Translations under genes and position numbers: made by a program
Assembly: GCA_013823945.1 (NCBI GenBank)
Contig: PNMZ01000003.1
Location: 186,001-250,000 of the forward strand
Direction of reading: 5' to 3'
DNA from: a bacterium
GTDB taxonomy: Bacteria; Armatimonadota; Fimbriimonadia; Fimbriimonadales; Fimbriimonadaceae
Length of the DNA stretch: 64,000 nt
The notes under the pieces: model-generated
What the model was told of the DNA's origin: nothing
What the model saw: only the letters and a program-made list of their open reading frames with translations
Databases searched by the model: none
Part shown: positions 15,231 through 31,523 of the stretch, piece by piece
How positions within the stretch are numbered: position 1 is the stretch's first letter
Layout: each line of letters begins with the position of its first letter

Positions 15231-15232
15231 GT

Positions 15233-16402: not shown

Positions 16403-16435
16403 AGGTCAATCTTTGCTGATTGCTCTTTGGATTCC

Positions 16436-16451
16436 TATGACATCGGTCATA
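16436..16451. promoter_or_regulatory. Crp/Fnr-type operator, porin promoter
   Basis: TATGAC-ATCG-GTCATA, a perfect 6-bp palindrome with 4-bp spacer. Its centre is 41.5 bp from the porin ATG (16402), the class II activator spacing if the mRNA starts at the ATG itself. AAAGAT lies at the -10 position. Confidence 0.8.
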
Positions 16452-16498
16452 AATGGAGTGATCCGACGGGCTAGCTTCAATCAGGTGCTGCCAGCTTT

Positions 16499-16512
16499 AT
16501 GATGGATATCAT
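16499..16512. promoter_or_regulatory. Crp/Fnr-type operator, ferredoxin-subunit promoter
   Basis: ATGAT-GGAT-ATCAT. Its centre is 42.5 bp upstream of GTG 16548. ATG 16539 would overlap the expected -10 position (AACCAT), so the GTG is the better start. Confidence 0.7.
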
Positions 16513-16547
16513 GGTGCGCGTTTGCTCGGCGTGCAACCATGGTCGTT

Positions 16548-17153
16548 GTGAGTGAGCGGCAGTTCTACATAGACCCAAGCCGGTGCATCGGTTGCAATGC
16601 CTGCGTTCAGGCGTGCGCAGAGTGCGACACCCACCCGGGCGTCTCGATGATTCACTTGGAGCAGGTTCAGCGCGCAGACACCGTTCAGACGACGCCAGTC
16701 ATTTGCATGCATTGCGATGAACCCGCCTGCGCGGTGGTGTGTCCTGCGGATGCCATCAAGAAAACTCCCGATGGAGTCGTGCAAAGCTCGCTCAAGACCA
16801 GATGCATCGGATGCACCAACTGCCTGTTCGCCTGCCCATTCGGGGTGCCCAAGTACGACGTAGAGGTGGACCAGATGATGAAGTGCGACATGTGCTACGA
16901 CCGCACCTCCATTGGGCTCAAGCCCATGTGCGCTACGGTCTGCCCCTCAGGAGCACTGTTCTATGGTACGCCCGAAGAACTCGCCGCCGAACGCTCAGGA
17001 ACCCCGATCAATGAGTTCATTTTTGGTGACAAGAAGATCACCACCAAGGTTCACTTGATGATGCCTCAAGGTGCGAAGCGGCTCGTGGTCAAACCCGATG
17101 CCGTTGTTCGTCGATCAGACCTTTTGACCGCCGTGCGACAAGTGGAGCGCTAA
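16548..17153 (+). CDS. Four-cluster ferredoxin subunit (DmsB/NrfC-like)
   Basis: 201 residues from GTG 16548 (ATG 16539 gives three more residues). Four [4Fe-4S] binding motifs are visible: [37 protein letters not shown] and CDMCYDR with a later CATVCP. This is the DMSO-reductase electron-transfer subunit type, cytoplasmic here because no signal is present. It heads a plus-strand operon with the Rieske and small membrane genes, and a molybdopterin oxidoreductase lies nearby on the other strand, so it probably relays electrons to that enzyme. Under the island palindrome at 16499. Confidence 0.9.
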
Positions 17154-17159
17154 TCCAAC

Positions 17160-17657
17160 ATGAACGACAAGCTGAAAGAAGATTTTCCAATTGAGTGGGA
17201 AGACGACCACTTTGTGACTCGCCGTGAGTTTTTTAAGTTTCTAACTTTGGCGAGTGGTGGCATAGCAGTTGGCACGGCGGCGTTGGCAGCCTATGCGCAG
17301 TTTCCGCGTGATGAGATCAAGTTTGAAGCCGCAAGAATCTGCTTAACAGACGACTTGAAACCGGGGTCGGCGCTCGCTTTCAGCTACCCCAGACCGGGCG
17401 ACCTATGCATTCTTGTTCGTAAGCAAGATGGCGAGTTAGTAGCCTTCAAGCGGCGTTGCACTCACCTTTCTTGCCCCGTGGAGTACGAGGTGAAGAATGA
17501 ACGCGAGCTTCTTTATTGTCCGTGCCACAACGGAGCCTTTTCCTTGGAGGACGGTAGCGTGGTTCAGGGCCCGCCACCGCATCCACTGCCGCAAGTGAAA
17601 ATTGAGGTTCGCGGTAACGAGGTTTGGGCCACAGGCGTGATCAAGGGTGATCACTGA
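17160..17657 (+). CDS. Rieske [2Fe-2S] protein
   Basis: 165 residues. The cluster ligands are intact: CTHLSC (box 1) and CPCHNG (box 2), followed by GPPPHPLPQ, the Pro-loop region of Rieske proteins. The N-terminus carries TRREFFKFLTLASGG and a hydrophobic helix, a twin-arginine type signal-anchor, so the cluster domain should face the periplasm, anchored in the membrane. It sits 6 bp after the ferredoxin gene and overlaps the next ATG, so the three form one operon. Likely a quinol-side electron carrier for nitrate reduction; how its electrons reach a cytoplasmic catalytic subunit is open. Confidence 0.9.
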   Translation: MNDKLKEDFPIEWEDDHFVTRREFFKFLTLASGGIAVGTAALAAYAQFPRDEIKFEAARICLTDDLKPGSALAFSYPRPGDLCILVRKQDGELVAFKRRCTHLSCPVEYEVKNERELLYCPCHNGAFSLEDGSVVQGPPPHPLPQVKIEVRGNEVWATGVIKGDH

Positions 17658-17890
17658 TGAACACGCCTCAATTCCATCGCCGACGTCAAAAAGCGGTAGT
17701 TTTCGTCGGATTCTTGCTGTTCGCGTTGATCCTCTTTCTGATTCAGCTCTGGCTCTTTGTGATGGTGCTCGAAAACATATTGGCTGGTAAGACTGAAATG
17801 GTCATTCAGGCATCGGTTCTTAGCATCGGACTATTCGGCATCAACATCTGGATGCTCGCTGGGGTGAAGCGGCTGATGAAGATGCAGTAG
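17657..17890 (+). CDS. Small two-helix membrane protein
   Basis: 77 residues with two hydrophobic helices (about 15-38 and 47-68) and a basic N-terminus (HRRRQK). It starts on the last base of the Rieske stop codon (TGATG). I recall DUF6755-type small membrane proteins of this form beside Rieske/ferredoxin oxidoreductase genes, but the assignment is tentative. Probable membrane anchor or assembly subunit of the same complex. The frame ends just before the convergent hemerythrin gene. Confidence 0.75.
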   Translation: MNTPQFHRRRQKAVVFVGFLLFALILFLIQLWLFVMVLENILAGKTEMVIQASVLSIGLFGINIWMLAGVKRLMKMQ

Positions 17891-17893
17891 TCG

Positions 17894-18346
17894 TTAGGAT
17901 TTGGATTGAATGCGGTCAAGCCTACGTTGCACAATTTCGGCCCGGCTAGGGCAGTTCGCCCACCGTCGCTGCTCCATCTTCAAGGTTTCGTGAATCAAGT
18001 TTGCCTCTTCATCTAAGGACATGCGGGATTCAATAGCGGGAAACAGGACACGCTCTTCCCAGCGAATGTGATCTTCCAGCGCCTGCCCCAACGCCACGCA
18101 CGATTTTGGCAATTCTCCTATGAGCTGCTCAATCTGCCGGTGTTCCTCATATAGTCGCGCTGCATCGTCGCCGGCCAGTGGGCCAAGGAGCCGCTCCTCT
18201 TCGGCAAAGTGATCGGCCAGTTCTCGATCCCAAGCCTCGCTGATCATCACCGGAGCCTCCGGGCGCTCTTCTTTGAGCGCCCGGGCGAGGTGCAATCCAT
18301 CGTTGTGATCCCGCGAGAACGGTTCCAGAGCAAGAGCCCGTTTCAT
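17894..18346 (-). CDS. Hemerythrin HHE-domain protein
   Basis: 150 residues, four-helix di-iron protein of the hemerythrin class. Ligand pattern is visible: FSRDHNDGLHLARAL, DHFAEEERLL, EEHRQIEQLI and LEDHIRWEERVLFP. Its ATG overlaps the stop of the nitrate reductase gene (18346/18343), so it is coupled to it. Hemerythrins beside nitrogen-oxide enzymes are usually read as NO or O2 sensors or iron-cluster repair factors; either would fit protection of the Fe-S-rich reductase. Role inferred. Confidence 0.85.
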   Translation of the reverse strand: MKRALALEPFSRDHNDGLHLARALKEERPEAPVMISEAWDRELADHFAEEERLLGPLAGDDAARLYEEHRQIEQLIGELPKSCVALGQALEDHIRWEERVLFPAIESRMSLDEEANLIHETLKMEQRRWANCPSRAEIVQRRLDRIQSKS

Positions 18347-20526
18347 TGCGGCGGCTCAGACTTCTCGATCTTCACGCAAGCCCGTTTGTATTCAGGGATG
18401 CCACTGACGGGATCGTAGGAGCGGATGGTGAGGTTGTTCGCCGCCTTACGCCCGGGCCAGTGATACGGGATGAAGACGGTGTCTGGGCGAATCGTGGTGA
18501 CCACTTTAGCCTGAAGGACGACTTCGCCCCGCCGACTAGTGACGCGCATCCAGTCCTTGTCGGCGATACCGTATTTTGCGGCCAACGTCGGGTGAATCTC
18601 AACGTAGGGATCAGGACAGAGGTCAACCAGCCCTCCGATCCGGCGGGTTTGTGTCCCGCTCAAATAGTGCGACACAACGCGCCCGGTGGTCAGAACCACC
18701 GGGTACTCGTCATCCGGTTCTTCCAGCGGCGGCCGGTACTTCACAGCATTGAAGTGGGCTTTGCCGTCTGGGGTCTTGAACTTCAGGTCCTCCCAAAGGC
18801 GCGGTGTGCCCGGGTGGCCAATTTCGGGGCAGGGCCAAAAGACGCCGAGCTCATTCTCGATCCGCTCGTAGGTGATTCCGTAGTAGTCGGCGGTTCCGCC
18901 CTTGCTCGCCACTCGCAGTTCGTTGAAGATGCCCTCCGACGTCTTGAAGTGATCAAAGAACTTGCCACGTCCAAGCCGCCGCGCGAGTTCCAGAATAATG
19001 TCGGTGTCGGCTTGCGCGTTTCCGGGAGGGTTCACCGCCTTCTTGATCCGAATCACCCGGCCTTCGGCGCTGGTGCTGGTTCCATCCTCCTCTTCGTGAA
19101 GCGATCCCGCCATGACGATGTCGGCGTGGTGAGCCGTCTCGTTCAAGAAGAAGTCTATAGCCGTGTAGTGCTCCAGCTTGTTGAGGGCTTCGCGCGTAAA
19201 GTTGGAATCAGGCAAGGAGACCAGCGGATTAAAGCAAATGGAGATGAGGGCTTTGATCTCACCGGCATGGATCATTTCCATGATCTCGGGCGCGGTGTGC
19301 CCCTTGCCCGGTAGTTCTTCGTCGGTGCAGCCCCATACCGAGCAGATGTACTCGCGGTGAGCAGGGTTCGAGATATCCCGGTTACCGGGGAGCTGGTCGC
19401 ACTTGTGGCCGTGTTCGCGCCCTCCTTGACCATTGCCTTGGCCTGTGATAGTTGCGTATCCGCAGCCTTTGCGCCCGATCCGTCCGGTGGCGAGAACGAG
19501 GTTAATAGAGCTGACTACGTTGTCCACGCCCTTGGAGCTGTGCTCAATACCTCGGGCGTGCATCAGGAAGCTGGTTTTCGCTTCGCCCCACATTTTTCCG
19601 GCTCGAATGATGTCTTCGACTATAACGCCGCTAATGCGGCTCGCCTCTTCCAACGGGAGCGCGAGGGCCGCCGCCTTGGTTTCTTCCCAACCCGAAGTGT
19701 GTTCGGCGATGAACGCATCGTTGGTCAGCCCTTCTTCGATCAGCACTCGGAGGATGCCAAGCAGGAGCGCCGAATCCGTTCCCGGGAGCACCGGGAGGTG
19801 AAGGTCGCAAGTGCGGGCGATAGGCGTCAAGCGTGGATCAATCACGATCAGTTTCGCGCCCCGATCCCTGGCCCTCCAGATATAGTCTGTGGTGATGGGC
19901 GAGCACTCGGCTACATTTGTGCCAGCCAGGAGAATCACTTCCGCGTGGACGATGTCTTCCCAAGAATTTGAGGCTCGGTCAAGCCCGAACGCCTTCTTGT
20001 TCCCGGCCCCGGCGCTAACCATGCATAAGCGACCGTTGTAGTCGAGGTTGGCAGTCTGTAAGCCGAGCCGCGCGAATTTCCCGATCAAGTAACTCTTCTC
20101 ATTGGTGAGAGAAACGCCCGAGAGAAACGCCACGGAGTCCTTGCCGTATTTGTCCTGGACTTCCTGAATAGCCATAATGGTGGTGCTGAAGGCTTCCTCC
20201 CAAGAGATTGAGATGAATCCTTGGCCGGGCACGTTCTTCATCGGATTAAGTAGTCGATCAGGGTGGCCCCCTTGCAGGTATCGCTTGACGCCCTTAGGGC
20301 AGAGCTTGCCCTTGTTAAACGGAAATTCTTCCCACGGCTCGAAGCCGATGACTTGGTCTTTCTTCACCTTCAACTGGATGCCGCACTGCATGCCGCAAAA
20401 ACAACAGTGCGTCTTCACCAGTCTGTCGGGATCATCCCTGCCCACCCAGCCGCCAGGAGGTGTGTAGGCCGGGTGCGGACCGAAATCTTCGATCAGCTTC
20501 TCGATTGAGACAGGGGGCTTAGCCAT
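18343..20526 (-). CDS. nasA: NasA/NarB-type nitrate reductase catalytic subunit
   Basis: 727 residues, a molybdopterin oxidoreductase of the length of cyanobacterial NarB. The N-terminal [4Fe-4S] site is C41-x2-C44-x3-C48 with the fourth Cys at 76 (KGKLCPKG); YNGRLCMVSAGAG supplies the likely Mo-ligating Cys. TGQGNGQGGREHGHKCDQLPG and the C-terminal molydop-binding segment (TTGRVVSHYLSGTQTRR) are typical of the Nas/Nap branch. There is no Tat signal, so it is cytoplasmic. Reaction: nitrate to nitrite. The start has a palindrome centred exactly 41.5 bp upstream and TAAACT at -10, so its mRNA is probably leaderless. A formate dehydrogenase-like role is less likely given the NarK neighbours. No nitrite reductase is present. 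Confidence 0.85.
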   Translation of the reverse strand: MAKPPVSIEKLIEDFGPHPAYTPPGGWVGRDDPDRLVKTHCCFCGMQCGIQLKVKKDQVIGFEPWEEFPFNKGKLCPKGVKRYLQGGHPDRLLNPMKNVPGQGFISISWEEAFSTTIMAIQEVQDKYGKDSVAFLSGVSLTNEKSYLIGKFARLGLQTANLDYNGRLCMVSAGAGNKKAFGLDRASNSWEDIVHAEVILLAGTNVAECSPITTDYIWRARDRGAKLIVIDPRLTPIARTCDLHLPVLPGTDSALLLGILRVLIEEGLTNDAFIAEHTSGWEETKAAALALPLEEASRISGVIVEDIIRAGKMWGEAKTSFLMHARGIEHSSKGVDNVVSSINLVLATGRIGRKGCGYATITGQGNGQGGREHGHKCDQLPGNRDISNPAHREYICSVWGCTDEELPGKGHTAPEIMEMIHAGEIKALISICFNPLVSLPDSNFTREALNKLEHYTAIDFFLNETAHHADIVMAGSLHEEEDGTSTSAEGRVIRIKKAVNPPGNAQADTDIILELARRLGRGKFFDHFKTSEGIFNELRVASKGGTADYYGITYERIENELGVFWPCPEIGHPGTPRLWEDLKFKTPDGKAHFNAVKYRPPLEEPDDEYPVVLTTGRVVSHYLSGTQTRRIGGLVDLCPDPYVEIHPTLAAKYGIADKDWMRVTSRRGEVVLQAKVVTTIRPDTVFIPYHWPGRKAANNLTIRSYDPVSGIPEYKRACVKIEKSEPPQ

Positions 20527-20559
20527 ATCTGAAGTTTAGTCCCGCCGGGGGGATGCCGT

Positions 20560-20575
20560 TATGACAGGCGTCATA
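20560..20575. promoter_or_regulatory. Crp/Fnr-type operator, nasA promoter
   Basis: TATGAC-AGGC-GTCATA, centre 41.5 bp from the nasA ATG (20526). TAAACT at 20533-20538 on the minus strand fits the -10 element with the transcript starting at the ATG. The site overlaps the end of the upstream TauE gene. Confidence 0.85.
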
Positions 20576-21311
20576 GCGGCATCCCCTTCTGGAGCAGCTT
20601 GCCCACGGCAAGTAGCAGAACCAACCCCAGCGCTCGCCGAAGGGCAAGGCTCGAGACCCGATGGGCTCCAAGGAAGCTGCCACCGACTGCGCCAAGAGTG
20701 CCAACGGTGATCAGCGGCCAGAGGCTCAGGCTTTCTCGCAGGAGATCAAAGGGTCGAGCCGAGAGACCGGCCAACGAGTTCGCGAAAATGAACCCCGCCG
20801 AGAGGGCTGCCACTTTGTGCGGCTGCGCCCACCGATTCAGGATCATGAGCGGTGACAAGAAAATCCCTCCTCCGACCCCGACAAGCCCGCTTAGGAATCC
20901 GATGCTGGCCCCAGAACCAATGAGGATCGGGCGGCCAGGTGGTTGGCTTTCGCCGTCTTTCGCGGGAACGCTGAAGATCAACACTCCAGCGGCGTAAAGA
21001 AGCACCACGGCAAGAACGAGGTCCTGGGTTCGATTTTCAAACTGAAGGCGACCCCCCAAGAAGGCAAAGGGAATTGAACCCAGCAAGAGCGGCCATGCGA
21101 GATTCCAATCAAAATGCTTCGCTCGGCCAAAAACCACCAGGGTGATGCCCGCGACAAACACGTTGAGAAGCAACGCAGTGGTCGCTCCGACCGCGCTCGG
21201 AATCGCGGTGAACGCCAGCAGAGCCAAGTATCCCGAGGCTCCGCCATGACCAACCATGCTGTAGCCAAGGGCCACGGCGAAAACTCCGAGGAAAAGCCAG
21301 GGCTCAATCAT
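20571..21311 (-). CDS. TauE/SafE-family membrane permease
   Basis: 246 residues from ATG 21311, which overlaps the end of the MoaE-MoeB gene by 8 bp. About eight hydrophobic helices and the duplicated TauE/SafE glycine motif (GYSMVGHGGASGYL; SGLVGVGGGIFLSPLM) are visible. The family moves small anions such as sulfite and sulfoacetate across the inner membrane. Placed at the end of the cofactor operon it might export nitrite or sulfite, or take up an oxyanion; no molybdate ABC transporter is in the island, so oxyanion import is worth considering. Substrate not determinable. Confidence 0.8.
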   Translation of the reverse strand: MIEPWLFLGVFAVALGYSMVGHGGASGYLALLAFTAIPSAVGATTALLLNVFVAGITLVVFGRAKHFDWNLAWPLLLGSIPFAFLGGRLQFENRTQDLVLAVVLLYAAGVLIFSVPAKDGESQPPGRPILIGSGASIGFLSGLVGVGGGIFLSPLMILNRWAQPHKVAALSAGFIFANSLAGLSARPFDLLRESLSLWPLITVGTLGAVGGSFLGAHRVSSLALRRALGLVLLLAVGKLLQKGMPL

Positions 21312-22710
21312 GTTTAAGGCACTCGATTCCTCCCTGGAGCGAAAAGACGTCGCGAACGCCACGTGCTTTCAGGTCGGCGACTAAGCGATAACTCCGCCTA
21401 CCTGAGGCGCAAACGAATAGAGTCGGGCGTTGCCATTCTGCCATATAGCATTCCGCCATCGGCACTCGTCGGTGGGGCCGGGTGAGCTCGGAGGTTTCGT
21501 CTGGGTCCCGAATATCTACCAGATCAAAGTTTTCAAGATTAACCGAGGCCGCGTCAACATCCCAAATGATGCCCCCGGAACTGCGTTCACCGGAGGACGT
21601 GCGTCGGATCGTGGTCGCTTCTAAAGTGCGGAAATCAAACAAGAGCAACTTGTCGTCCAAGACCGGTAACCCAAGGATGCCTTTGATGACTTCGTTTGCT
21701 TGCAGCACCCCCATCAGCGTGGGCACAACGCCAAGCACTCCGGATTGGGCGCAGGTTCCAACGCAGTGGTCGGGAGGAGGTTCCGGAAACAGATCGGCTA
21801 GGCACGGTCCTCCGGGCCGAATCGACATCAGTTGGCCCTCAAACTGGTGGACGCTGGCGGTGACCAGGGGGCGACCGAGGCTCTGGCAAACTCGGTCGAG
21901 CAGGAGCTTGGTGCTCAAGGAATCGGTTCCGTCCACGATCCAGTCGTAACTGGAGACGAGTTGTTTGGCATTGGCTTCAGCGAGGTGCACGGGAAACGTC
22001 TGAACCGTCAGTTGGGGCCGGAGCCGACGCGCGAATACCGCGGCCCGCTCGACCTTCATGCGCCCGATATCGGAGGCGGCAAACAGGGTTTGGCGATGAA
22101 TATTCGAAAGTTCAACCAGGTCGGGGTCCACGAGGCCGAGCGTCCCAATCCCTGATCCCACCAGGGAAGGAAGACTTCCCGCCGCCAGACCCCCAACCCC
22201 GACCAGCAGCACCCTCGCTCCAGCGAGTGCGGTCTGACCCTCAGCTCCGACCTCGGGAAGCCGCATTTGCCGGGCAAACATTGCATCGTCCAAGGGGCTA
22301 GTCGTGGCCTGACCGGGGACAACCCACTCGGCGACCCCGCTAGCGTATGTTTCACGTTTCCATATGGGGACCCGCCATTTGAGCTGATCCATGATCCACT
22401 CGCAGGCTTCAAACGCCTCTCGCCGATGGGCAGAGGCCGTTTGAACCACTACTGCAGTATCTCCGATGGCTAGTTTGCCGACCCGGTGAATAACACTCGC
22501 CTCCAGAAGTTCAAAGCGATCAATGGCCTCTCGAACAAGCGCCTCACCCTGGGAGAGGGCCATCTCGGGGAAAGCCTCGTATTCCAGCTCCACCACGTCT
22601 TGACCGTCGGCGTGAATTCGGACCTTGCCCTCAAAAACTACAAACCCGCCCGCTGAATCATGCGCCATCGGCTCAGGAGCTATTGGCGTATCGCTTAGTG
22701 AGAACTTCAT
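21304..22710 (-). CDS. MoaE-MoeB-rhodanese fusion protein
   Basis: 468 residues from ATG 22710, which overlaps the moaD stop (ATGA). Three cofactor domains are joined: MoaE (about 1-135; HRREAFEACEWIMDQLKWR and PIWKRE hold the catalytic lysines), MoeB/ThiF adenylating domain (about 145-365; GVGGLAAGSLPSLVGSGIG, then DPDLVELSNIHRQTLF, and CVGTCAQSG) and a C-terminal rhodanese (about 380-468; active-site loop CASGRRS). Together they adenylate MoaD, sulfurate its C-terminus and use it to make molybdopterin. The glycine motif is GVGGLA rather than GxGGLG. MoaD is encoded immediately upstream, so the carrier and its three processing activities are in two adjacent genes. Confidence 0.9.
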   Translation of the reverse strand: MKFSLSDTPIAPEPMAHDSAGGFVVFEGKVRIHADGQDVVELEYEAFPEMALSQGEALVREAIDRFELLEASVIHRVGKLAIGDTAVVVQTASAHRREAFEACEWIMDQLKWRVPIWKRETYASGVAEWVVPGQATTSPLDDAMFARQMRLPEVGAEGQTALAGARVLLVGVGGLAAGSLPSLVGSGIGTLGLVDPDLVELSNIHRQTLFAASDIGRMKVERAAVFARRLRPQLTVQTFPVHLAEANAKQLVSSYDWIVDGTDSLSTKLLLDRVCQSLGRPLVTASVHQFEGQLMSIRPGGPCLADLFPEPPPDHCVGTCAQSGVLGVVPTLMGVLQANEVIKGILGLPVLDDKLLLFDFRTLEATTIRRTSSGERSSGGIIWDVDAASVNLENFDLVDIRDPDETSELTRPHRRVPMAECYMAEWQRPTLFVCASGRRSYRLVADLKARGVRDVFSLQGGIECLKHD

Positions 22711-22949
22711 CCGCCTGCCACCGGAGGAATTAAAACAAGCTCGCAACCTTCTCGCAATGAGTCAGCCGGATCGACGAACTCATTGTCGATGGCGACGCGA
22801 ATCAGCGCCGGGGGGAGCCCTAGTCGGTGCTCGGCGATCAGCGACTCCACGAGCTCGCCAACCGTCTCGCAAGGCGTCGCTATCTGTTCAACCGCGAGCT
22901 CACGTCGTTCTCTTAGGACGGCGAAATAGCGGATCGTGACGGTCTTCAT
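22707..22949 (-). CDS. moaD: Molybdopterin synthase sulfur carrier MoaD
   Basis: 80 residues from ATG 22949, overlapping the moeA stop (ATGA). Ubiquitin-like fold: VTIRYFAVLRERREL at the start, AIDNEFVDPADSLREG mid-protein, and the C-terminal Gly-Gly (LIPPVAGG) that carries the thiocarboxylate. Small subunit of molybdopterin synthase, partner of the MoaE domain in the next gene. Cytoplasmic. Confidence 0.9.
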   Translation of the reverse strand: MKTVTIRYFAVLRERRELAVEQIATPCETVGELVESLIAEHRLGLPPALIRVAIDNEFVDPADSLREGCELVLIPPVAGG

Positions 22950-24106
22950 GAATCCCGGCTCCACGGAAAAGGAAGGAAATCAATAAGATCCCCCTGGGCT
23001 AAGGCACTCGCTTCAGGGCTAACCCGTACAAGCCCTTCGCATTCCAGAAGACCAAAGTTCGCGTGTGAACCCACAACATTTTGGATGGCAATTTCTCCGC
23101 TCGGCAGTCGTCTAGCAGGCAGAAACTCCTCTCGGCCGGGTTTGCGGTCAAAGTTGCAGGCAACCGGCCTCGGTTCACAGGGTGAATCGTCACCCAGCCA
23201 AGTGCTGACAAACACGAGGTAACCCACCCATGTCGATAGAGGATTGCCAGGTAACCCGAACCAAGACTTCCCATCTTCGCGCACTCCGAAGGCAATCGGC
23301 TTGCCCGGCTTCACGGCGACGCCGTGGAACTTCACTTGGAAACCTATCTCTTCTATCGCCGAATGAACAAGATCGTAAGCCCCGACCGAAATCCCGCCGG
23401 TCGTAATCAATAGATCGCAGCTCGTGATCGCCTTCTGGATTTGGTTGCGCAGTTCTGCCTGAGAGTCTTCAGCATGCCTGACTTCTGCCCGAATGCCTCT
23501 CAGGGCAAAAGCCGAAGAGAGGGCAGTCGCATTGGAGTTGAATATCTGACCGAATTGAAGCGTCTGTCCTGGGGGCACAACTTCATTTCCGGTACTCAGG
23601 ACGGTAACTCTCGGCCGACTGCGCACCTCAATGGATTCCAGTCCGCAACTGGCAAACGCGGCTAGGTGGGGTGGTGTCAGCGTCGCTCCCTGTTGCCCGA
23701 TGAGGAGTCCCGTCGGAGCTTCTTCAGCTTGATGCCGGATATGACCGCCCTTTCGAACTTCCCCCAGAAGAAAGCCTTCCTGGACTGAAGTGTCCTCCTG
23801 AGCGATAACGCCGTATGTGCGGAAGGGCACTGGGGCCCCCGTGAATATCCGAACAGCCTCACAAGGCTGTATGCTCATAAGAGTCGAAGCCCCCGCGGCA
23901 ACTTCGCCTACGATCTCCCACGGTCCCTCCGGACTGCCGACTGCGAAGCCATCCATTGCGGCGTTATCAAAAAGCGGAAAATCAAATGGAGACATGATAT
24001 CTTCCGCTAAAACCCTGCCTAAGGCGATACCGAGCGCCAAACGCTCCGTTCTTGGCTCGGGTCGATTTTCGCGGATGATTAAGAGTGCTTCCTCGACCGA
24101 AATCAC
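22946..24106 (-). CDS. moeA: Molybdopterin molybdotransferase MoeA
   Basis: 386 residues. I start it at GTG 24106, which overlaps the moaC-mogA stop (GTGA) and yields the usual N-terminus (ISVEEALLII); an ATG at 24181 would intrude 78 nt into that gene. Family motifs are complete: FDNAAMDGFAV, STGNEVVPPG, TTGGISVGAYD and GLPGNPLSTWVGY. MoeA inserts molybdate into adenylated molybdopterin. Fifth-from-last step genes on either side show this is one cofactor operon running from moaA. Confidence 0.9.
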   Translation of the reverse strand: MISVEEALLIIRENRPEPRTERLALGIALGRVLAEDIMSPFDFPLFDNAAMDGFAVGSPEGPWEIVGEVAAGASTLMSIQPCEAVRIFTGAPVPFRTYGVIAQEDTSVQEGFLLGEVRKGGHIRHQAEEAPTGLLIGQQGATLTPPHLAAFASCGLESIEVRSRPRVTVLSTGNEVVPPGQTLQFGQIFNSNATALSSAFALRGIRAEVRHAEDSQAELRNQIQKAITSCDLLITTGGISVGAYDLVHSAIEEIGFQVKFHGVAVKPGKPIAFGVREDGKSWFGLPGNPLSTWVGYLVFVSTWLGDDSPCEPRPVACNFDRKPGREEFLPARRLPSGEIAIQNVVGSHANFGLLECEGLVRVSPEASALAQGDLIDFLPFPWSRDS

Positions 24107-25005
24107 GGGTGGCCCTCCCCAGCGAGCATCGAATGAACATGCAACAGGCTCGGCATCAGGCATGCCATGGCATCCTCGCAAGCTCCCGGACTGCCCGGAA
24201 TAGCCAGAACCACGGTCTGCCCGATGATCCCTGCCACTGGCCGGGCCAGCATTGCGGTAGGTATCCGCGAGTAGCTGTAGGCTTGGAAAGCCGCGACCAC
24301 ACCGGGAAGGCTCTTTTCGAGAAGTGGCTCGATTGTCTCGATGGTGATGTCACGCGGGCCAACTCCCGTGCCCCCGGTGATAACGAGGACCGAGACACCC
24401 ATTTCAGCGACGGCGTGGATCTCGTGGGCCAGTAAATCCGATTCATCGGGCAGAACTTTGACCGAGACAGAGCCCGCGCCGTGGCCCTTGAGGGCCTGCT
24501 CAAGACTTGGGCCGCATCGATCTTCGTACTCGCCGCGATGCGCGCGATCTGACATCACCAGAACTTGTGCGCTCCAGTCGCTGCGCTTGGGCAAGTCGCT
24601 CTTCCCGCCTGTCTTTGAGAGCAGGCGAACGCCGACGATTTCCATGTCGTCGTCGATCATTTTCAGCATGTCGTAGAGGGTGAGCACCGCGGCAGTAGCC
24701 CCAGTCATGGCCTCCATTTCGACCCCGGTCTTGGCGATGGAAACAACGAAGACCTCGACCGCGATCCGGTCTTCTAGGAACTCAAAGTCAACCCGCACAT
24801 GCTCAATCGGGATGTTGTGGCAGTAAGGAATCCACTCGGTTGTCTTCTTCGTCGCCTGAATTGCTGCCACTTTGGCGACGGGAACCGGGTCCCCCTTGGG
24901 CGTGTCGCCATTCTGGACCCGGCGGATCGTCTCCGCGCTCGCAGTGAGTTCAGCGCGAGCGAACGCCGTTCGCTTGGTCGTGTTCTTAAATGAAACGTCT
25001 CTCAT
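24103..25005 (-). CDS. MoaC-MogA fusion (cyclase plus adenylyltransferase)
   Basis: 300 residues. Residues 1-150 are MoaC, cyclic pyranopterin monophosphate synthase (IPYCHNIPIEHVRVDF, TGVEMEAMTGATAAVLTLYD). Residues 155-300 are MogA/MoaB (VLVMSDRAHRGEYEDRCGP, ITGGTGVGPRDITIE, AIPGSPGACEDAM), the molybdopterin adenylyltransferase. Fused MoaCB proteins are known, so this is conventional. ATG overlaps the moaA stop by four bases. Confidence 0.92.
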   Translation of the reverse strand: MRDVSFKNTTKRTAFARAELTASAETIRRVQNGDTPKGDPVPVAKVAAIQATKKTTEWIPYCHNIPIEHVRVDFEFLEDRIAVEVFVVSIAKTGVEMEAMTGATAAVLTLYDMLKMIDDDMEIVGVRLLSKTGGKSDLPKRSDWSAQVLVMSDRAHRGEYEDRCGPSLEQALKGHGAGSVSVKVLPDESDLLAHEIHAVAEMGVSVLVITGGTGVGPRDITIETIEPLLEKSLPGVVAAFQAYSYSRIPTAMLARPVAGIIGQTVVLAIPGSPGACEDAMACLMPSLLHVHSMLAGEGHP

Positions 25006-25994
25006 CCGCCGATTTGCACCATGGTTAAGTTATCTCGTTGAGCCCAGTTTCGCATGGGTGGATGGGCGCTCCACTTGCCATCGAGGCACTTCTGAACGGC
25101 AATCCCCAGTTCTTCATCGGAAGCTCCTTCGCGAATCAAGTCCCGCAACGAGACGCTCGGGGGCAAGAAGAGACACGATTTGATTTGGCCGTCTGCGGTC
25201 AAGCGAAGGCGATTGCAGCCTGAGCAAAAACTGTCGGTGACGCTTGACACGAAGGCGACTCGCCCCTCGGAGCCGTTGATTGCATACTCCCGGGCAACAT
25301 CGGAAGCCCCAGAGGCCAAGGGTCGAAGCTCAAATTGGTCGCAGAGTCGGGACCGAATCTCTGCGGAAGAGACGACCCGCTCTGCGTTCCAACCGTTGTC
25401 TAAAAACGGCATGAACTCAATGAACCGGACGGTGAGGCTGTGCTTGCAGGCAAACTCGCCAAAGTGGATGATCTCATCCTCATTCACTCCGGGCAGGACC
25501 ACCACGTTGATCTTGGTTTCAAGCCCCGCCGCTTGGGCGCTCTCAATTCCCTGGAGAACCCCAGGCAACTCGTTGCGCCGCGTGATCTCTAAGAAGCGAT
25601 CTTGGCGCAAGGTATCGAGACTCACATTCACGCTCGCCAGGCCCACCATTCTGAGCGTTATCGCGTCCTGCGCGAGCCTGGTTCCGTTTGTTGTCAAAGC
25701 AAGCTGGTTCAGACCCGGGATCCGGGCAAGTACTTCAACGAGGTTGAGGTAGCCCTTGCGGAGAGTTGGTTCGCCGCCGGTAAGCCGGATCTTCCGCACG
25801 CCACGCTCAACGAAGAATCGAGCTAACCGCTCAATTTCCTCAAAGTTTAAAATTTCTTCGCGCGGTTGCCAAACCATCCCTTCTTCGGGCATGCAATAGA
25901 CGCACCGAAAATTGCATCGATCCGTGATCGACACCCGAAGGTAGTCGTGGAATCGACCAAACTGGTCCGTCAGCACGTCCGCGTGTGTGGTCAC
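25002..25994 (-). CDS. moaA: GTP 3',8-cyclase MoaA
   Basis: 330 residues from GTG 25994. Radical-SAM cluster CNFRCVYCMP, GGEPTLRKG, C-terminal second cluster FCSGCNRLRLT and KSCLF, and a C-terminal Gly-Gly. First committed step of molybdenum-cofactor synthesis from GTP. The GTG is chosen because it is exactly 41.5 bp from the centre of the palindrome at 26029-26042 with CACAAT at -10; the longer frame starting at ATG 26042 would put its start codon inside that operator. Heads the operon moaA, moaC-mogA, moeA, moaD, moaE-moeB, tauE, all joined by 4 to 8 bp overlaps. Confidence 0.92.
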   Translation of the reverse strand: MTTHADVLTDQFGRFHDYLRVSITDRCNFRCVYCMPEEGMVWQPREEILNFEEIERLARFFVERGVRKIRLTGGEPTLRKGYLNLVEVLARIPGLNQLALTTNGTRLAQDAITLRMVGLASVNVSLDTLRQDRFLEITRRNELPGVLQGIESAQAAGLETKINVVVLPGVNEDEIIHFGEFACKHSLTVRFIEFMPFLDNGWNAERVVSSAEIRSRLCDQFELRPLASGASDVAREYAINGSEGRVAFVSSVTDSFCSGCNRLRLTADGQIKSCLFLPPSVSLRDLIREGASDEELGIAVQKCLDGKWSAHPPMRNWAQRDNLTMVQIGG

Positions 25995-26028
25995 GGTTCG
26001 ATTGTGCCGTAAGCCGCCGCATGGAACC

Positions 26029-26042
26029 ATGACATCCATCAT
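26029..26042. promoter_or_regulatory. Shared Crp/Fnr-type operator, moaA and narK
   Basis: ATGAC-ATCC-ATCAT, centre 26035.5. It is exactly 41.5 bp from GTG 25994 (moaA, minus) and exactly 41.5 bp from ATG 26077 (narK, plus). One site therefore has class II geometry in both directions. CACAAT and CATAAC are the matching -10 elements. Confidence 0.85.
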
Positions 26043-26076
26043 AAACCTCGCCGAGAGAGCTGGTCATAACAGAGTC

Positions 26077-27564
26077 ATGCCAGATCGAGCCCTTGCCAAC
26101 CGCATGCTCATCCTCAACACCATTGCCTTCACAGTGTGCTTTGCCGTGTGGACGATGTATGGCGTGCTGGGGGCTTTTTTGGCCGATAAGCAGATAATCC
26201 CGATCTCCAAAGAACAGCTCGGATGGCTCCTGGGCGCCCCCATTCTCACGGGGTCGATCATGCGGTTACCGGTTGGACTGCTTACGGATCGCTTTGGGGG
26301 CAAACCGGTCTACATAGGCGTGATGCTCATTGCGACTTTGGGCATTGCATCCGTGAGCTTCGCAACTACGTTCGCCCATCTTGTGATCTCGGGACTCATT
26401 TTCGGAATGAGCGGAGCAGCTTTCGCAGTTGGGATCGCCTACACGTCCGTGTTTTTTCCCAAGGAAAAACAAGGGACCGCACTCGGAATCTTCGGCGTTG
26501 GAAACGCAGGCTCGGCGTTGACCACGCTGCTGGCTCCGCTCACACTGCAAATGCTCACTCAGGAGGGCAACCAATTGGAAGGGTGGCGAACCTTGCCCCT
26601 GATTTATGCGGCATGCCTATTTGGGATGACGATCCTGTTTGCGCTCTTAACTAAGAACAGGGTCACAGAAGGAGCGAGCCAAAAGACGATCCGCACCATG
26701 CTTGCCCCTCTCAAGTCCGTTCGAGTTTGGCGATTCGGTGCGTACTACTTTCTTGTCTTCGGGGCATTCGTCGCACTTGCACAATGGCTCGTACCTTACT
26801 ATCTCAGCGTCTATGGCATGAGCCTCGCCATGGCGGGTCTCATGGCGAGCATTTTTAGCCTTCCTAGCGGTTTGGTTCGTGCGCTCGGAGGGTGGATGAG
26901 CGATAAGTTCGGAGCCAGGACTACGATGTACTGGGTGCTGGCAAGTTGCGTGGTTTTGTTCGCGCTGGTAATCGCGCCACGCATGGATATCATGTCCCCA
27001 GGGGAAGGAGTTCTGGCTGAACGAGCCGGAACCGTGACTCAGGTCGGTCAAGATCGGGTTCAAATCGATGACAAGTCGTATGCTCTCAAGACTGCTCGAG
27101 GCTCGACGCAGACCCTGTCGAGCAAAGGTTCCAGCCTTTCTGAGGGCACTCTCATCTTCCCCCGAAGTCAGTCGTGGCAAGAGCCAGTAGTTGAAGTGGG
27201 CCAAAAGGTTAGGAAGCGAGAGCTGCTAGCCCGTGGGGTGACTCACGTTTACTTTCAGGCCAATGTGTGGGTATTCACGGCCATCGTTTTCTTGGCCGGA
27301 ATCATGATGGGAATCGGTAAGGCCGCCGTGTATCGCCACATTCCCGACTATTTTCCGAATGATGTTGGCGTTGTTGGTGGAATCGTAGGGGTCATCGGCG
27401 GACTGGGCGGTTTTGTGTGCCCCATTCTGTTTGGCTACCTACTGAAACTGACGGGACTCTGGACCTCTTGCTGGCTGCTCCTCGCCCTCATTAGCGTTAT
27501 TTGCCTCGTTTGGATGCACGTCACAATACTCAAGATCGCGAAGCAGGCTCCGGCTACGGAGTAG
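26077..27564 (+). CDS. narK: NarK nitrate/nitrite transporter with inserted domain
   Basis: 495 residues from ATG 26077, which is 41.5 bp from the shared operator. Major-facilitator transporter of the nitrate/nitrite porter type: RLPVGLLTDRFGGKPV in the first half, GMSGAAFAVGIAYTSVFFP and GIGKAAVYRHIPDYFPNDVG hold the nitrate signatures. About 12 helices in the inner membrane. Unusual: residues about 306-393 form a hydrophilic beta-rich insert between two helices, ending in EPVVEVGQKVRKRELLARG, which looks like a biotinyl/lipoyl-type (barrel-sandwich) half motif. The neighbouring NarK (28067) lacks it. Probably imports nitrate or exchanges nitrate for nitrite. Confidence 0.88.
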   Translation: MPDRALANRMLILNTIAFTVCFAVWTMYGVLGAFLADKQIIPISKEQLGWLLGAPILTGSIMRLPVGLLTDRFGGKPVYIGVMLIATLGIASVSFATTFAHLVISGLIFGMSGAAFAVGIAYTSVFFPKEKQGTALGIFGVGNAGSALTTLLAPLTLQMLTQEGNQLEGWRTLPLIYAACLFGMTILFALLTKNRVTEGASQKTIRTMLAPLKSVRVWRFGAYYFLVFGAFVALAQWLVPYYLSVYGMSLAMAGLMASIFSLPSGLVRALGGWMSDKFGARTTMYWVLASCVVLFALVIAPRMDIMSPGEGVLAERAGTVTQVGQDRVQIDDKSYALKTARGSTQTLSSKGSSLSEGTLIFPRSQSWQEPVVEVGQKVRKRELLARGVTHVYFQANVWVFTAIVFLAGIMMGIGKAAVYRHIPDYFPNDVGVVGGIVGVIGGLGGFVCPILFGYLLKLTGLWTSCWLLLALISVICLVWMHVTILKIAKQAPATE

Positions 27565-27945: not shown

Positions 27946-27998
27946 CAGCAATCCCAACCAACATACCTTGAGCGACGCTCATGATGGCGGATGCTGTG

Positions 27999-28014
27999 TA
28001 TGACAGGCATCATA
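27999..28014. promoter_or_regulatory. Crp/Fnr-type operator, second narK promoter
   Basis: TATGAC-AGGC-ATCATA, centre 28006.5. GACAAT at 28036-28041 fits the -10 element for a transcript starting near 28048. ATG 28040 lies inside that -10 element, so translation from ATG 28067 with a 19-nt leader is more likely. Confidence 0.8.
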
Positions 28015-28066
28015 GCGCGTCGTGAGCTGATCGTCGACAATGAGGAAAGACAACGAGTCCGAACCC

Positions 28067-29398
28067 ATGAATACACTAACCGACGCTCAGAAAGTTCAAG
28101 AATGGCAACCTAACGACCCTGCCTTTTGGGAGTCAACCGCAAAGCCGGTCGCATGGCGGACGTTGTGGATCACCACGTTCTGCCTTCTCCTGAGCTTCTC
28201 CACCTGGTTCATGGTGAGTGCTCTGGTCGTGAAGCTCTCCGGGATCGGATTCAAATTCACGCCCCAAGAACTTTTCTGGCTGACCGCCATGCCCGGCCTC
28301 GCGGCTGGAACCTTGCGCATCGTCCACACCTTTCTCATCCCAATTTTTGGGACGCGCAAGATCGTAAGTGTATCGACGCTTCTCTTGGCGATCCCCTGCG
28401 TGGGCTGGGGGTTTGCGGTCATGAACCCTCAGACTCCGCTCTCTACCTTTTTGGTTCTGGCATTCCTCGCAGGTTTGGGCGGGGGCAACTTCAGTTCATT
28501 CATGCCGAGCACATCGTTGTTTTTCCCAAAATCCAAGCTGGGGACAGCACTGGGGATTCAAGCCGGGATCGGCAACTTTGGCGTGAGTGTTGCCCAGTTC
28601 CTAATCCCCGCCATTCTCGGGATCGCTCTTGTTGGTAGCTCGCAAACCCTGACAAACCCCAAGACCGGGGCGACGAGCAGCATCTCTCTGCAGAACGGGG
28701 CTTTGGTCTGGCTCCCGCTTGTGCTCTTGGGTGCTGTGGTGGCGTGGTTTGGCCTTCGAGACGTGCCGGTTCAGGCCAGCTTTAAGGAGCAACTCGATAT
28801 CTTCAAGGAAAAGCACACGTGGGTCATGACTTCGCTCTACATCATGACCTTCGGGTCGTTTAGTGGTCTAGCTGCTGCTTTTCCGTTAATGATCAAACAG
28901 CTCTACGGTGGATTCGATGGCGCCCCAGATCCGTTGGCGTTTGCCTTTTTGGGGCCGCTGGTTGGGGCGGGAATTCGCGCGGCAGCGGGACCGGTGGCAG
29001 ATAAGCTGGGCGGGGCTAAAGTCACGATGGTCAGCGGGATCGGAATGCTTGGGTGCAGCATCGCAATTCTGCCTTTTGCTAATCCGACATCGATGGCGAG
29101 CTGGTCAGGTTTTCTGTGGCTTATGCTAGGCATCTTCTTCTTCAGCGGCATTGGCAATGCCAGCACGTTCAAACAAATCCCAATGATTTTCCCGCCGCGC
29201 CAGGCGGGGGGAGTCATCGGATGGACTTCCGCCATTGCGGCCTATGGGCCGTTCGCTTTCAGTCTGATTCTCGGCGCAGTTCTCGGTTCGGGCCGCAATG
29301 CGGCCCCGTTCTTCGTAGGGCTTGCCGTGTTTTACGTGATCAACATCGGCCTGAATTGGTGGTTCTATTCCCGAAAAGGGGCTGAAAAACCCTGCTAG
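28067..29398 (+). CDS. narK: NarK-type nitrate/nitrite transporter
   Basis: 443 residues from ATG 28067. Twelve-helix major-facilitator transporter with nitrate-porter signatures: GLGGGNFSSFMPSTSLFFPKSKLG and GIGNASTFKQIPMIFPPRQAGG. The first match in pieces of the NarK2 type, usually nitrate uptake or nitrite export. ATG 28040 is the longer alternative but overlaps the predicted -10. It carries no inserted domain, unlike the paralogue at 26077. Two distinct NarK proteins in one island suggest separate uptake and exchange roles. Confidence 0.88.
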   Translation: MNTLTDAQKVQEWQPNDPAFWESTAKPVAWRTLWITTFCLLLSFSTWFMVSALVVKLSGIGFKFTPQELFWLTAMPGLAAGTLRIVHTFLIPIFGTRKIVSVSTLLLAIPCVGWGFAVMNPQTPLSTFLVLAFLAGLGGGNFSSFMPSTSLFFPKSKLGTALGIQAGIGNFGVSVAQFLIPAILGIALVGSSQTLTNPKTGATSSISLQNGALVWLPLVLLGAVVAWFGLRDVPVQASFKEQLDIFKEKHTWVMTSLYIMTFGSFSGLAAAFPLMIKQLYGGFDGAPDPLAFAFLGPLVGAGIRAAAGPVADKLGGAKVTMVSGIGMLGCSIAILPFANPTSMASWSGFLWLMLGIFFFSGIGNASTFKQIPMIFPPRQAGGVIGWTSAIAAYGPFAFSLILGAVLGSGRNAAPFFVGLAVFYVINIGLNWWFYSRKGAEKPC

Positions 29399-29420
29399 CC
29401 ATCTAGCGGCCGCTCCCGGA

Positions 29421-29434
29421 ATGACAACCATCAT
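29421..29434. promoter_or_regulatory. Crp/Fnr-type operator, NnrS-like gene
   Basis: ATGAC-AACC-ATCAT, centre 29427.5. GATAAT at 29457-29462 fits the -10 element for a transcript starting at about 29469, two bases before TTG 29471. Confidence 0.75.
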
Positions 29435-29506
29435 GGCGGCGGCCGACTGAGCCCTCGATAATGAAGAGCATTGATCAAAGAGCGGCCTTCGTTGACTCTG
29501 CTTCCG

Positions 29507-30844
29507 ATGCGTTCGACGATTCCCGTCGCCAAGTCGGGAGAGGATCGCGCGGAGACCCAAGTGTATCGCCCCTTCTTCGTGTGCGGAATCTTCACCGTGC
29601 TCACCGTGGGTTGCTTTTTGGGGGCGATTGCTTTGATGGGCATCTCGCGCCAAGGAAGCTATACGGCGTCCGTCTGGACTCCTTACGTCTTGGCCCATGC
29701 CAACTCGCAGCTGTTTGGGTGGGTCGGCCTTTTTGTCATGGGGTTTGCCATGCAGCAACACGGGACCACTCTCGCCAAGAGCGCGGCATTTCATAAAATC
29801 GCCTGGTGGGCTCTGGGCGGCATGGGAACCGGTATTACGCTGCGATTCGCGGCGGAACCCCTCGCCCAGCAGGATCCGTCTCGCTGGCTCTGGTTGGGAC
29901 TCTGTTCTGCAAGCCTCCAGATCGTCGCCGTGGCGTTGTTCCTGTACAACATTGGAGCCAACCGATATAGGAAAGCGGAACCCCTTACATGGCCGACTGC
30001 GTTTGTGTTCGCCTCTTTGGGGTGCTTGCTCCTGGTCTCCCTTGCCGAGCCCGCTGCGTTTGCGCTCAGTCACCAGTCAAGCCGGGAGGCGTCGATTGCC
30101 TTTGTCGCCCAATGGTTCACACCACTTCGGGAACTGCAATTCTTGGGCTTTGTGTCGATGATGATCTTTGGCGTCGCGGCGAGCAAGTTCCCGGGATGCC
30201 TTGGTTTCCGAGCCGCCGACCCTGGTTGGGGCCTTGCCGCCTTTGGACTCTGGTTGGGAGGCTTGGTTGCCCGAGTGGTGGGTTGGAACGTGTATTTTCA
30301 ATCCGGACTCATGCCAGGCACGGACATGTGGTTCCGCCTCGGCGGCCTTCTGTTGGCAATGGGGGCGGGGGCGATGACCATTTCTCTGGGTGTTTTCAGC
30401 CCCGTGCGACATGCAAATCCAAGCCAAAAGTTCATCCGATCTGCTTTTGCCTGGTTGCTGATTGCAGGTGCGCTTCTAATCTTGGAACCCCTGCATTTGC
30501 GGGCCATAGGTGCACCGTTCTCACATGCGTACACTGGCGCGATTCGACACGCGGTCACGGTCGGATTTATCTCGCAGATGATCGTGGCCGTGGGCTACCA
30601 CTTGGTGACGAGAATGCTGATGCTGGATGAGCGAAAGGTTCCCACCCTCTGGAGCGTTTTTGTTCTGCTGAACGTCGGCAATGCGGCAAGGGTCGGATTG
30701 GAAATCATCACGGATTTGAGTCGCTCAGCCTTTGCCCCGATGGGCTGGACCGGATTTGTTGAGTTGCTCGGTCTTGGGATTTGGGCCACGGTAATGCTCC
30801 GATTCTTGCTACGAAGGGGCCCAACTTACGCCGCAACTTGCTGA
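29507..30844 (+). CDS. NnrS-like multi-helix membrane protein
   Basis: About 445 residues from ATG 29507 (TTG 29471, just after the predicted transcript start, would add 12). Roughly 12 transmembrane helices. HANSQLFGWVGLFVMGFAMQ, GFVSMMIFGVAASKFPG and HAVTVGFISQMIVAVGYHLV carry conserved His positions as in NnrS and haem-copper-oxidase-related proteins. NnrS is a haem/copper membrane protein linked to nitric-oxide stress in denitrifiers. Placement under the island operator supports a role in tolerating nitrite-derived NO. Family call is moderate. Confidence 0.7.
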   Translation: MRSTIPVAKSGEDRAETQVYRPFFVCGIFTVLTVGCFLGAIALMGISRQGSYTASVWTPYVLAHANSQLFGWVGLFVMGFAMQQHGTTLAKSAAFHKIAWWALGGMGTGITLRFAAEPLAQQDPSRWLWLGLCSASLQIVAVALFLYNIGANRYRKAEPLTWPTAFVFASLGCLLLVSLAEPAAFALSHQSSREASIAFVAQWFTPLRELQFLGFVSMMIFGVAASKFPGCLGFRAADPGWGLAAFGLWLGGLVARVVGWNVYFQSGLMPGTDMWFRLGGLLLAMGAGAMTISLGVFSPVRHANPSQKFIRSAFAWLLIAGALLILEPLHLRAIGAPFSHAYTGAIRHAVTVGFISQMIVAVGYHLVTRMLMLDERKVPTLWSVFVLLNVGNAARVGLEIITDLSRSAFAPMGWTGFVELLGLGIWATVMLRFLLRRGPTYAATC

Positions 30845-30904
30845 AAATCACTCGGAGCGATTTTGGTGCAGCCATCGAGTTCAAGCGATTTGATAGCACA
30901 AGCT

Positions 30905-31513
30905 CTACTTGACAGGACGACTTGCGGAATCCAGCAAGGTCTTTAGTTCTAATGGTGTATTGACTCCTCTGCACCATTCGGGGTGAACACCGAGCCCTAG
31001 TAAGACTGATTCGGTGACGACTTCCACGTCCAAAGCCTCCACCCAATCCATAATTCTTGGCGAGTCAACATCGCACAGCCTCTCCCAGGCCCGGTGGCGA
31101 TACACGCCGCACAGAGGTTGTAACCGCCCATCCAATAAGGGAATCGAAGCTTCTTTTTCACCGAGACACGTTTCGAGAGCTCTCACGACGACCCCGTCGA
31201 AAAGTGGCACATCGCACGAAAGCACGAAGACAAGATGGCTGGTCGGGACGAATGCGCGAATTGCCGTGAGTGGCCCGTGCTCGATCTCATCATCAGGATG
31301 AAAACGGTATCCATCAAGTGGCGAACGGCCCAAGATCGTGGGTTCCCAGCCTGCTTCCCGCAGAATTCGGGCTAACCGGACGGCAAGCGGCTCGCCTCCC
31401 ATCGAAATCAAAGCCTTATCGAAGCCCATCCGGCGGCTTGCCCCTCCGGTCAACAAGACGGAAGACTGGTCAGCATGATCGATATCATAGTGCGCCCCCA
31501 CCTGGCCTTCCAT
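30905..31513 (-). CDS. mobA: Molybdenum-cofactor guanylyltransferase MobA
   Basis: 202 residues; nucleotidyltransferase motif LLTGGASRRMGFDKAL, then GPLTAIRAF and LSCDVPLF. MobA adds GMP to Mo-molybdopterin to give the bis-MGD form used by NasA-type enzymes. The first 16 residues are not family-like and the gene covers the operator at 31475, so the true start may lie downstream (TTG 31456). The spacing to that operator does not fit control of mobA. Convergent with the NnrS-like gene. Confidence 0.88.
   Translation of the reverse strand: MEGQVGAHYDIDHADQSSVLLTGGASRRMGFDKALISMGGEPLAVRLARILREAGWEPTILGRSPLDGYRFHPDDEIEHGPLTAIRAFVPTSHLVFVLSCDVPLFDGVVVRALETCLGEKEASIPLLDGRLQPLCGVYRHRAWERLCDVDSPRIMDWVEALDVEVVTESVLLGLGVHPEWCRGVNTPLELKTLLDSASRPVK
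31475..31488. promoter_or_regulatory. Crp/Fnr-type operator, CMD/NarI-like operon
   Basis: ATGAT-CGAT-ATCAT, centre 31481.5, which is 42.5 bp from ATG 31524. CATACT is a suitable -10 element 7 nt before the ATG. The site is inside the 5' end of mobA. Confidence 0.8.
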
Positions 31514-31523
31514 ACTCTTGACT

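Follow-up and report, generated by a model that had tools for sequence, protein, structure and literature searches.

A Crp/Fnr-type operator family at a fixed distance from predicted leaderless starts in a nitrate-reduction island of Armatimonadota

Introduction

In class II promoters of the FNR and CRP type the activator site is centred at -41.5 and a -35 element is not needed. The E. coli mRNAs of this class have leaders, whereas leaderless mRNAs are predicted for the nitrate-reduction island described here, which lies within a stretch of 64,000 nucleotides (the window; contig PNMZ01000003.1, positions 186,001 to 250,000) from a bacterium of the family Fimbriimonadaceae. The elements in question are the palindromes ATGAY-N4-RTCAT, putative operators in front of the island genes, and the Crp/Fnr-family protein encoded at 14529-15230 of the window, here called the 14529 regulator.

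Related arrangements have been described in other bacteria. The HcpR1 motif is FNR-like, TTGAC-N4-GTCAA (PMC1274295). In Deinococcus, experiment showed that a -10 motif located 6-7 bp before the open reading frame gives a leaderless mRNA (PMC12340547), and the CRP of Mycobacterium tuberculosis (PMC4117774) and GlxR of Corynebacterium (PMC7026483) are Crp-family regulators in genomes with leaderless transcripts.

Operators and promoters of the island

The 14529 regulator, a dedicated Crp/Fnr-family protein with an altered recognition helix (VESTIR), very probably drives as an activator eight class II promoters, seven of which would be leaderless. Sequence and comparison with relatives directly provide the operators, the -10 elements, the spacings, their conservation and a genome-wide -10 signal. 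From these we infer that the 14529 regulator binds the sites and acts on them as an activator and not as a repressor, and also the 5' ends of the transcripts and the inducing signal.

All seven ATGAY-N4-RTCAT palindromes named in a preliminary description of the locus were recovered, and they lie within 15 kb of the window. Dinucleotide shuffling gives a mean of 0.28 per window, and none of 100 shuffles reached seven. The genes they precede encode a NasC-type nitrate reductase, ferredoxin, Rieske and DUF6755 proteins, molybdenum-cofactor enzymes, two NarK transporters, a porin, a hemerythrin, a distant NnrS-like protein and a pair of proteins similar to carboxymuconolactone decarboxylase (CMD) and NarI. 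The features of the island are the following.

14529..15230, plus strand: Crp/Fnr-family regulator, probable activator, 233 aa, recognition helix TTVESTIRIMSRW; Pfam HTH_Crp_2 and cNMP_binding
15233..16402, minus strand: outer-membrane porin (Pfam Alginate_exp)
16409..16414, minus strand: -10 AAAGAT of the porin promoter; predicted +1 = 16402 (A of ATG)
16437..16450, unstranded: porin operator ATGACATCGGTCAT, centre 16443.5 (palindrome search; conserved in relatives)
16499..16512, unstranded: operator of the ferredoxin-Rieske-DUF6755 operon ATGATGGATATCAT, centre 16505.5 (palindrome search; conservation)
16535..16540, plus strand: -10 AACCAT of the ferredoxin promoter; predicted +1 = 16547-16548
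16548..17890, plus strand: ferredoxin-like 4Fe-4S protein (GTG 16548), Rieske protein (17160) and DUF6755 protein (17657)
17894..20526, minus strand: nasA/nasC-type nitrate reductase (18343-20526) and hemerythrin (17894-18346)
20533..20538, minus strand: -10 TAAACT of nasA; predicted +1 = 20526
20561..20574, unstranded: nasA operator ATGACAGGCGTCAT, centre 20567.5 (palindrome search; conservation)
20571..25994, minus strand: operon of moaA, moaC-moaB fusion, moeA, moaE-moeB fusion and TauE (molybdenum cofactor, export)
26001..26006, minus strand: -10 CACAAT of moaA; predicted +1 = 25994 (GTG)
26029..26042, unstranded: operator common to the diverging moaA and narK promoters ATGACATCCATCAT, centre 26035.5, 41.5 bp to both starts
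26065..26070, plus strand: -10 CATAAC of narK; predicted +1 = 26077 (ATG)
26077..27564, plus strand: NarK-family nitrate/nitrite transporter
28000..28013, unstranded: narK2 operator ATGACAGGCATCAT, centre 28006.5 (palindrome search; conservation)
28036..28041, plus strand: -10 GACAAT of narK2; predicted +1 = 28048, giving a 19-nt leader to ATG 28067
28067..29398, plus strand: narK2, second NarK-family transporter
29421..29434, unstranded: operator of the NnrS-like gene ATGACAACCATCAT, centre 29427.5 (palindrome search; conservation)
29457..29462, plus strand: -10 GATAAT of the NnrS-like gene; predicted +1 = 29469 to 29471 (TTG)
29471..30844, plus strand: NnrS-like membrane protein, 457 aa (Pfam NnrS E = 0.87 only)
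31475..31488, unstranded: operator of the CMD operon ATGATCGATATCAT, centre 31481.5 (palindrome search; conservation)
31511..31516, plus strand: -10 CATACT of the CMD operon; predicted +1 = 31523-31524 (ATG)
31524..32881, plus strand: carboxymuconolactone-decarboxylase-like protein and a membrane protein with a weak NarI-like (Nitrate_red_gam) match

When the distances were recomputed, the start codon was located 41.5-43.5 bp from the operator centre at seven of the eight promoters, and every value given in the preliminary description was reproduced: 41.5 bp for porin (ATG 16402), nasA (ATG 20526), moaA (GTG 25994) and narK (ATG 26077), 42.5 bp for ferredoxin (GTG 16548) and the CMD operon (ATG 31524), and 43.5 bp for the NnrS-like gene (TTG 29471). 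At narK2 the distance to ATG 28067 is 60.5 bp.

Alignment of the eight promoters on the operator centre reveals in each of them a TATAAT-like hexamer 22 bp past the palindrome on the gene side. The hexamers, listed above, match TATAAT at 3-5 of the six positions, with a mean of 3.9/6 on the gene side; the six operators that serve genes on one side only average 0.7 on their other side. Random hexamers from the island match at 1.3/6 on average, and none of 20,000 samples reached the observed 3.9. No -35 element was found, as the best -35 hexamer at spacers of 16-18 reaches at most 3/6 at all eight promoters. With the operator centre 41.5 bp away from the predicted +1, a -10 in each of the eight and this poor -35 match, the island promoters have the features of class II promoters. 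Because the first reading had rested on the 41.5-bp spacing only, the presence of a -10 at the class II position constitutes an independent test of it. The hexamer lies 6-8 nt before the start codon at seven of the eight promoters, which agrees with the 6-7 nt typical of -10-adjacent leaderless genes.

In the proposed mechanism, a single local activator, most probably the 14529 regulator, would act through the seven palindromes as its operators. Its dimer on ATGAY-N4-RTCAT would cover positions -48 to -35 and, from this class II location, recruit RNA polymerase to promoters possessing a -10 hexamer and no -35 element. With the -10 situated about 6-8 nt upstream of the start codon, transcription would begin at the first base of this codon or within two bases of it, so that seven of the eight mRNAs would be leaderless and translated without a Shine-Dalgarno sequence, narK2 alone having a leader of 16-19 nt. 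A single operator would serve the divergent moaA and narK genes in mirror symmetry, 41.5 bp each way. The regularity would then be the sum of two ordinary constraints, the distance from activator to start site and a leader length of zero.

The narK2 promoter was described from the beginning as an exception with a 19-nt leader, and this stands, the conserved -10 GACAAT being at the class II place. In relatives the spacing is 57.5-60.5 bp, the -10 is GACAAT (GAAAAT in two) and the leader would be 16-19 nt. A class I reading of narK2, leaderless with the operator at -60.5, was rejected: the hexamer before ATG 28067 matches TATAAT at only 1/6 (0-2 in those relatives for which it was scored), and the sequence kept at the class II location is GACAAT.

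Distribution of the operator in the genome

The genome-wide statistics come from a pattern search of the genome and from a 400-kb sequence sample. There are 25 ATGAY-N4-RTCAT matches in the whole 3.16-Mb genome, 18 of them outside the island, a number close to the expectation for random sequence, and 16 of these 18 fall inside open frames of at least 150 codons. The combination of operator, -10 and start was found at none of the 18. One outside site (L006) has an ATG at 41.5 bp, which is attributed to chance; the site is within a 457-codon frame of the other strand and is without a -10 element. The density of the palindrome is about 80 times higher in the island than in the rest of the genome, and the operator is essentially private to the island in this genome. 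The preliminary description named equal numbers of palindromes at random distances elsewhere in the genome as an outcome that would speak against it, and the near-chance count, mostly in long frames, does not do so. Two further one-mismatch operators in the island are both within genes, with no role seen.

Conservation of the arrangement

The named relatives belong to Armatimonadota (Uphvl-Ar1, accession CP021423.1, FIMBRI1, SZAS-2 and Chthonomonas-labelled metagenome-assembled genomes). Orthologues of nasA, narK, moaA and the ferredoxin gene (fdx) were drawn from 113 genomes of the order, and the best 30 per gene were examined. In the islands of nine relatives, operator, -10 and start are kept at every orthologous promoter except one porin site. 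An operator was present within 200 nt at 94 promoters of these four genes. At 79 of them, spread over 35 genomes, the distance to an in-frame start is 41.5-43.5 bp, with 46 at 41.5 bp, 28 at 42.5 bp and 5 at 43.5 bp.

This agreement bears on the suspicion that the spacing is an artefact of picking start codons that fit, for GTG or TTG was picked for three genes and ATGs are present at 33.5 bp for three. When starts opening frames of at least 90 codons were counted with no choice by hand, they too piled up at 41.5 (4), 42.5 (2) and 43.5 bp (1), and the minor pile at 33.5 bp (3) corresponds to ATGs within -10 sequences such as GATAATG. The ATGs at 33.5 bp of ferredoxin, narK2 and the NnrS-like gene were rejected as starts: they belong to the -10 sequences, and relatives do not keep them consistently. 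Longer versions of the porin and nasA are excluded by in-frame stops at 29.5-35.5 bp, between operator and start. Comparison with relatives also upheld the less obvious choices of the preliminary description: the upstream ATG 16539 of ferredoxin is ATA or ATT in relatives, where GTG 16548 is conserved; the GTG of moaA stays at 41.5 bp in relatives whose N-terminus is shorter by a codon; and TTG 29471 of the NnrS-like gene has as its counterpart an ATG at 41.5-43.5 bp, the TTG of the window resulting from a one-base insertion. An artefact of start selection is thus hardly credible, and the position of the operator could be used for calling start codons in such lineages.

The palindromes might instead be the operators of a repressor that blocks the promoters; position alone is no proof of activation, and Crp/Fnr proteins can repress. 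However, the sites are found at -48 to -35, upstream of the -10 and in the position of class II activation, and the promoters are without a -35, which is typical of activator-dependent promoters and unusual for strong repressed ones. Repressor sites tolerate many positions, while here the spacing is held within 2 bp in the 79 promoters. Repression is therefore distinctly unlikely.

The nasA promoter provides the most detailed comparison. The arrangement is kept in 22 of the best 30 orthologues, with proteins down to 77% identity, and in nine diverse promoters with the start at exactly 41.5 bp the identity is 90% in the half-sites, but 29% in the spacer, which is a chance level, and 28% in the upstream flank. 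No conserved block besides the operator and the -10 was seen in the diverged nasA promoters. Transcripts could also begin further upstream at unseen promoters, the operator spacing reflecting some other cause. This is very improbable, given that the -10 is conserved where a promoter needs it, and solely on the side of the gene, and that no such further block is seen.

Under class II activation, the nasA promoters also refine the position of the transcript start. The gap between -10 and ATG is exactly 6 nt in 20 of the 22, and in the nasA operators at 42.5 or 43.5 bp the additional base is mostly between the operator and the -10. With the -10 fixed and the variation lying upstream of it, the leader is probably zero rather than 0-2 nt; the earlier claim of transcripts within about two bases of the start is supported by the -10 placement and, for nasA, narrowed in this way. 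Leader length would so be fixed first, and the operator position set relative to it.

Beyond single promoters, operator-and-start matches number 2.4 per Mb in those genomes of the order that carry the clade of the 14529 regulator and 1.0 per Mb in those without it (P = 2e-8), and the same excess is present within the family (P = 3e-5), both P values ignoring the kinship of the genomes. Counted across the phylum, the pattern would turn up by chance about three times per 3 Mb, and only the family excess was used; the count from a reversed-pattern control is too low because reversal creates stop codons. On balance it is probable that activator-dependent leaderless promoters make up the whole nitrate-reduction regulon of an order. 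A single Crp/Fnr clade, its half-site specificity being new, would then set both transcription and translation starts, including those at the mirror-symmetric moaA-narK operator, which would give two divergent leaderless mRNAs.

Between species of different genera, the regulator is 90-98% and nasA 92-97% identical, which is higher than expected (window 14529-32881), and horizontal transfer of the island is possible. The fusions moaC-moaB (24103-25005) and moaE-moeB/thiF (21304-22746) are conserved in relatives. The name NnrS-like is weak: the Pfam NnrS match is at E = 0.87 only, though it extends over almost the whole model. The 457-aa protein has no significant Pfam family; it may be a remote member of NnrS or form a family of its own. 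The CMD operator falls within the 5' end of the mobA frame, which runs divergently (window 31456-31513) and whose true start may be a TTG further in.

Leaderless genes in the genome

The 400-kb sample of the genome contains 22 cases of TANNNT beginning exactly 12 nt upstream (-12) of the first start codon, where the background gives 3.0 per position (P = 2e-12). Among 57 strictly chosen genes whose starts are forced, 40% match TATAAT in at least 4/6 positions within -14 to -10, compared with 9% of controls, and 21% contain a Shine-Dalgarno core. The Shine-Dalgarno figure for the class Fimbriimonadia is only 25% (PMC10783764), which together with the Armatimonadota relatives fits a placement of the genome in this class. 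The genome-wide TANNNT peak at -12 indicates that leaderless genes are a trait of the lineage, and a -10 adjoining the start codon could be used for calling such genes in lineages of this kind. Class II activation by a Crp/Fnr protein, as first proposed from the spacing, is supported by the gene-side -10 without a -35, by the spacing kept in diverged relatives and by this genome-wide signal.

Upstream of the regulator gene, TAGACT stands exactly 6 nt from ATG 14529 (window 14509-14531), and there is no operator; the mRNA of this gene may be leaderless too.

The 14529 regulator

The 14529 protein matches Pfam PF00027 cNMP_binding (4e-12) and PF13545 HTH_Crp_2 (3e-17), both above cut-off, which places it in the Crp/Fnr superfamily. 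No other protein of the genome comes near it in its match to HTH_Crp_2, and its orthologues, 79-98% identical, adjoin the same operators in relatives. It was rejected as FNR proper, having two cysteines only in place of the four for [4Fe-4S], an NCBIfam Fnr score of 62 bits against a cut-off of 228, a helix V-E-S-T-I-R rather than E-x-x-S-R and the box ATGAY-N4-RTCAT rather than TTGAT-N4-ATCAA. An assignment to DNR, NnrR or HcpR was rejected as well, since the motif differs from TTGAC-N4-GTCAA and related ones at the outer base; the match to DNR is weak (4e-10).

The helix presumably has Glu and Arg at the positions of FNR Glu-209 and Arg-213 and Ile in place of Ser-212, a register taken from alignments and the FNR sequence. 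Such a replacement with Glu and Arg kept is in line with an FNR-like palindrome of a different outer base, ATGAY for TTGAT. Helix changes track half-site changes in the Crp/Fnr family (PMC1274295), which makes the ATGAY half-site with the VE(S/T)xIR helix a plausible new specificity pairing.

Several observations weigh against the reading proposed above. The ferredoxin -10, AACCAT, is the weakest match to TATAAT. Eight of the 30 nasA promoters are without an operator at this position, most of them still with a -10-like sequence beside the ATG. Three genomes (G118, G132 and G143) carry the operator without a regulator match at E <= 1e-30; there it may be used by another Crp/Fnr protein, or the assembly may be incomplete, and the G143 contig ends just upstream of the ferredoxin gene. 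Finally, most relatives have a second Crp/Fnr regulator, 28-31% identical and with the helix TTVESAIR, between the NnrS-like gene and mobA, at the following loci among others.

L058, 16479-17108: second Crp/Fnr regulator
L059, 2886-3533: second Crp/Fnr regulator
L060, 2902-3459: second Crp/Fnr regulator

Because of the operator-bearing genomes without a close orthologue and of this second gene, the link from the 14529 regulator to the operator is circumstantial. The cognate regulator could be another Crp/Fnr protein such as the second one, whose helix is similar, or the operator could be shared by both. However, the second protein is missing from the window (30845-30904) and from L062, where all operators are kept, and the 14529 protein holds the best HTH_Crp_2 match here, so that a different or shared regulator is unlikely.

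Comparison with known systems

Literature was searched in open-licence papers. No regulator with the palindrome ATGAY-N4-RTCAT as written was found there, nor an order-wide regulon with operator, -10 and start in register, an unusual half-site and a mirror-symmetric operator; for M. tuberculosis CRP and Corynebacterium GlxR, these papers yielded no description of a regulon that holds operator, -10 and start codon in a fixed register throughout. The 14529 regulator resembles both of them in being a Crp-family protein in a genome with leaderless genes.

The island promoters are similar to the class II promoters of E. coli FNR in their 14-bp palindrome (5-bp half-sites, N4), the Crp/Fnr fold of the regulator, the operator at -41.5, the lack of need for a -35 and the helix Glu and Arg. 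They differ in the half-site, ATGAY instead of the FNR TTGAT, in Ile for Ser-212 and in the two cysteines, which leave no FNR-type [4Fe-4S] cluster. DNR, NnrR and HcpR are likewise Crp/Fnr proteins that act on palindromes to control nitrate and nitric oxide genes, a role predicted here from sequence, but the half-site and helix are different and the operator is confined to the island in this genome. As in the leaderless genes of Deinococcus-Thermus, the -10 hexamer is positioned 6-7 bp before the start codon (PMC12340547), while here, in a member of Armatimonadota, one activator and its operator would link the leaderless promoters of a whole regulon.

For a phylum whose gene regulation is hardly documented, the locus offers an exact, testable set of predicted transcript starts together with corrected start codons, and it adds the pairing of ATGAY with VE(S/T)xIR as a candidate to the Crp/Fnr specificity code. 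It would be an unusually clean case of activator geometry locked to leaderless translation across a regulon, conserved despite the diverged sequence between. Class II activation and leaderless mRNAs are each already known; the half-site and the regulon-wide locking look new.

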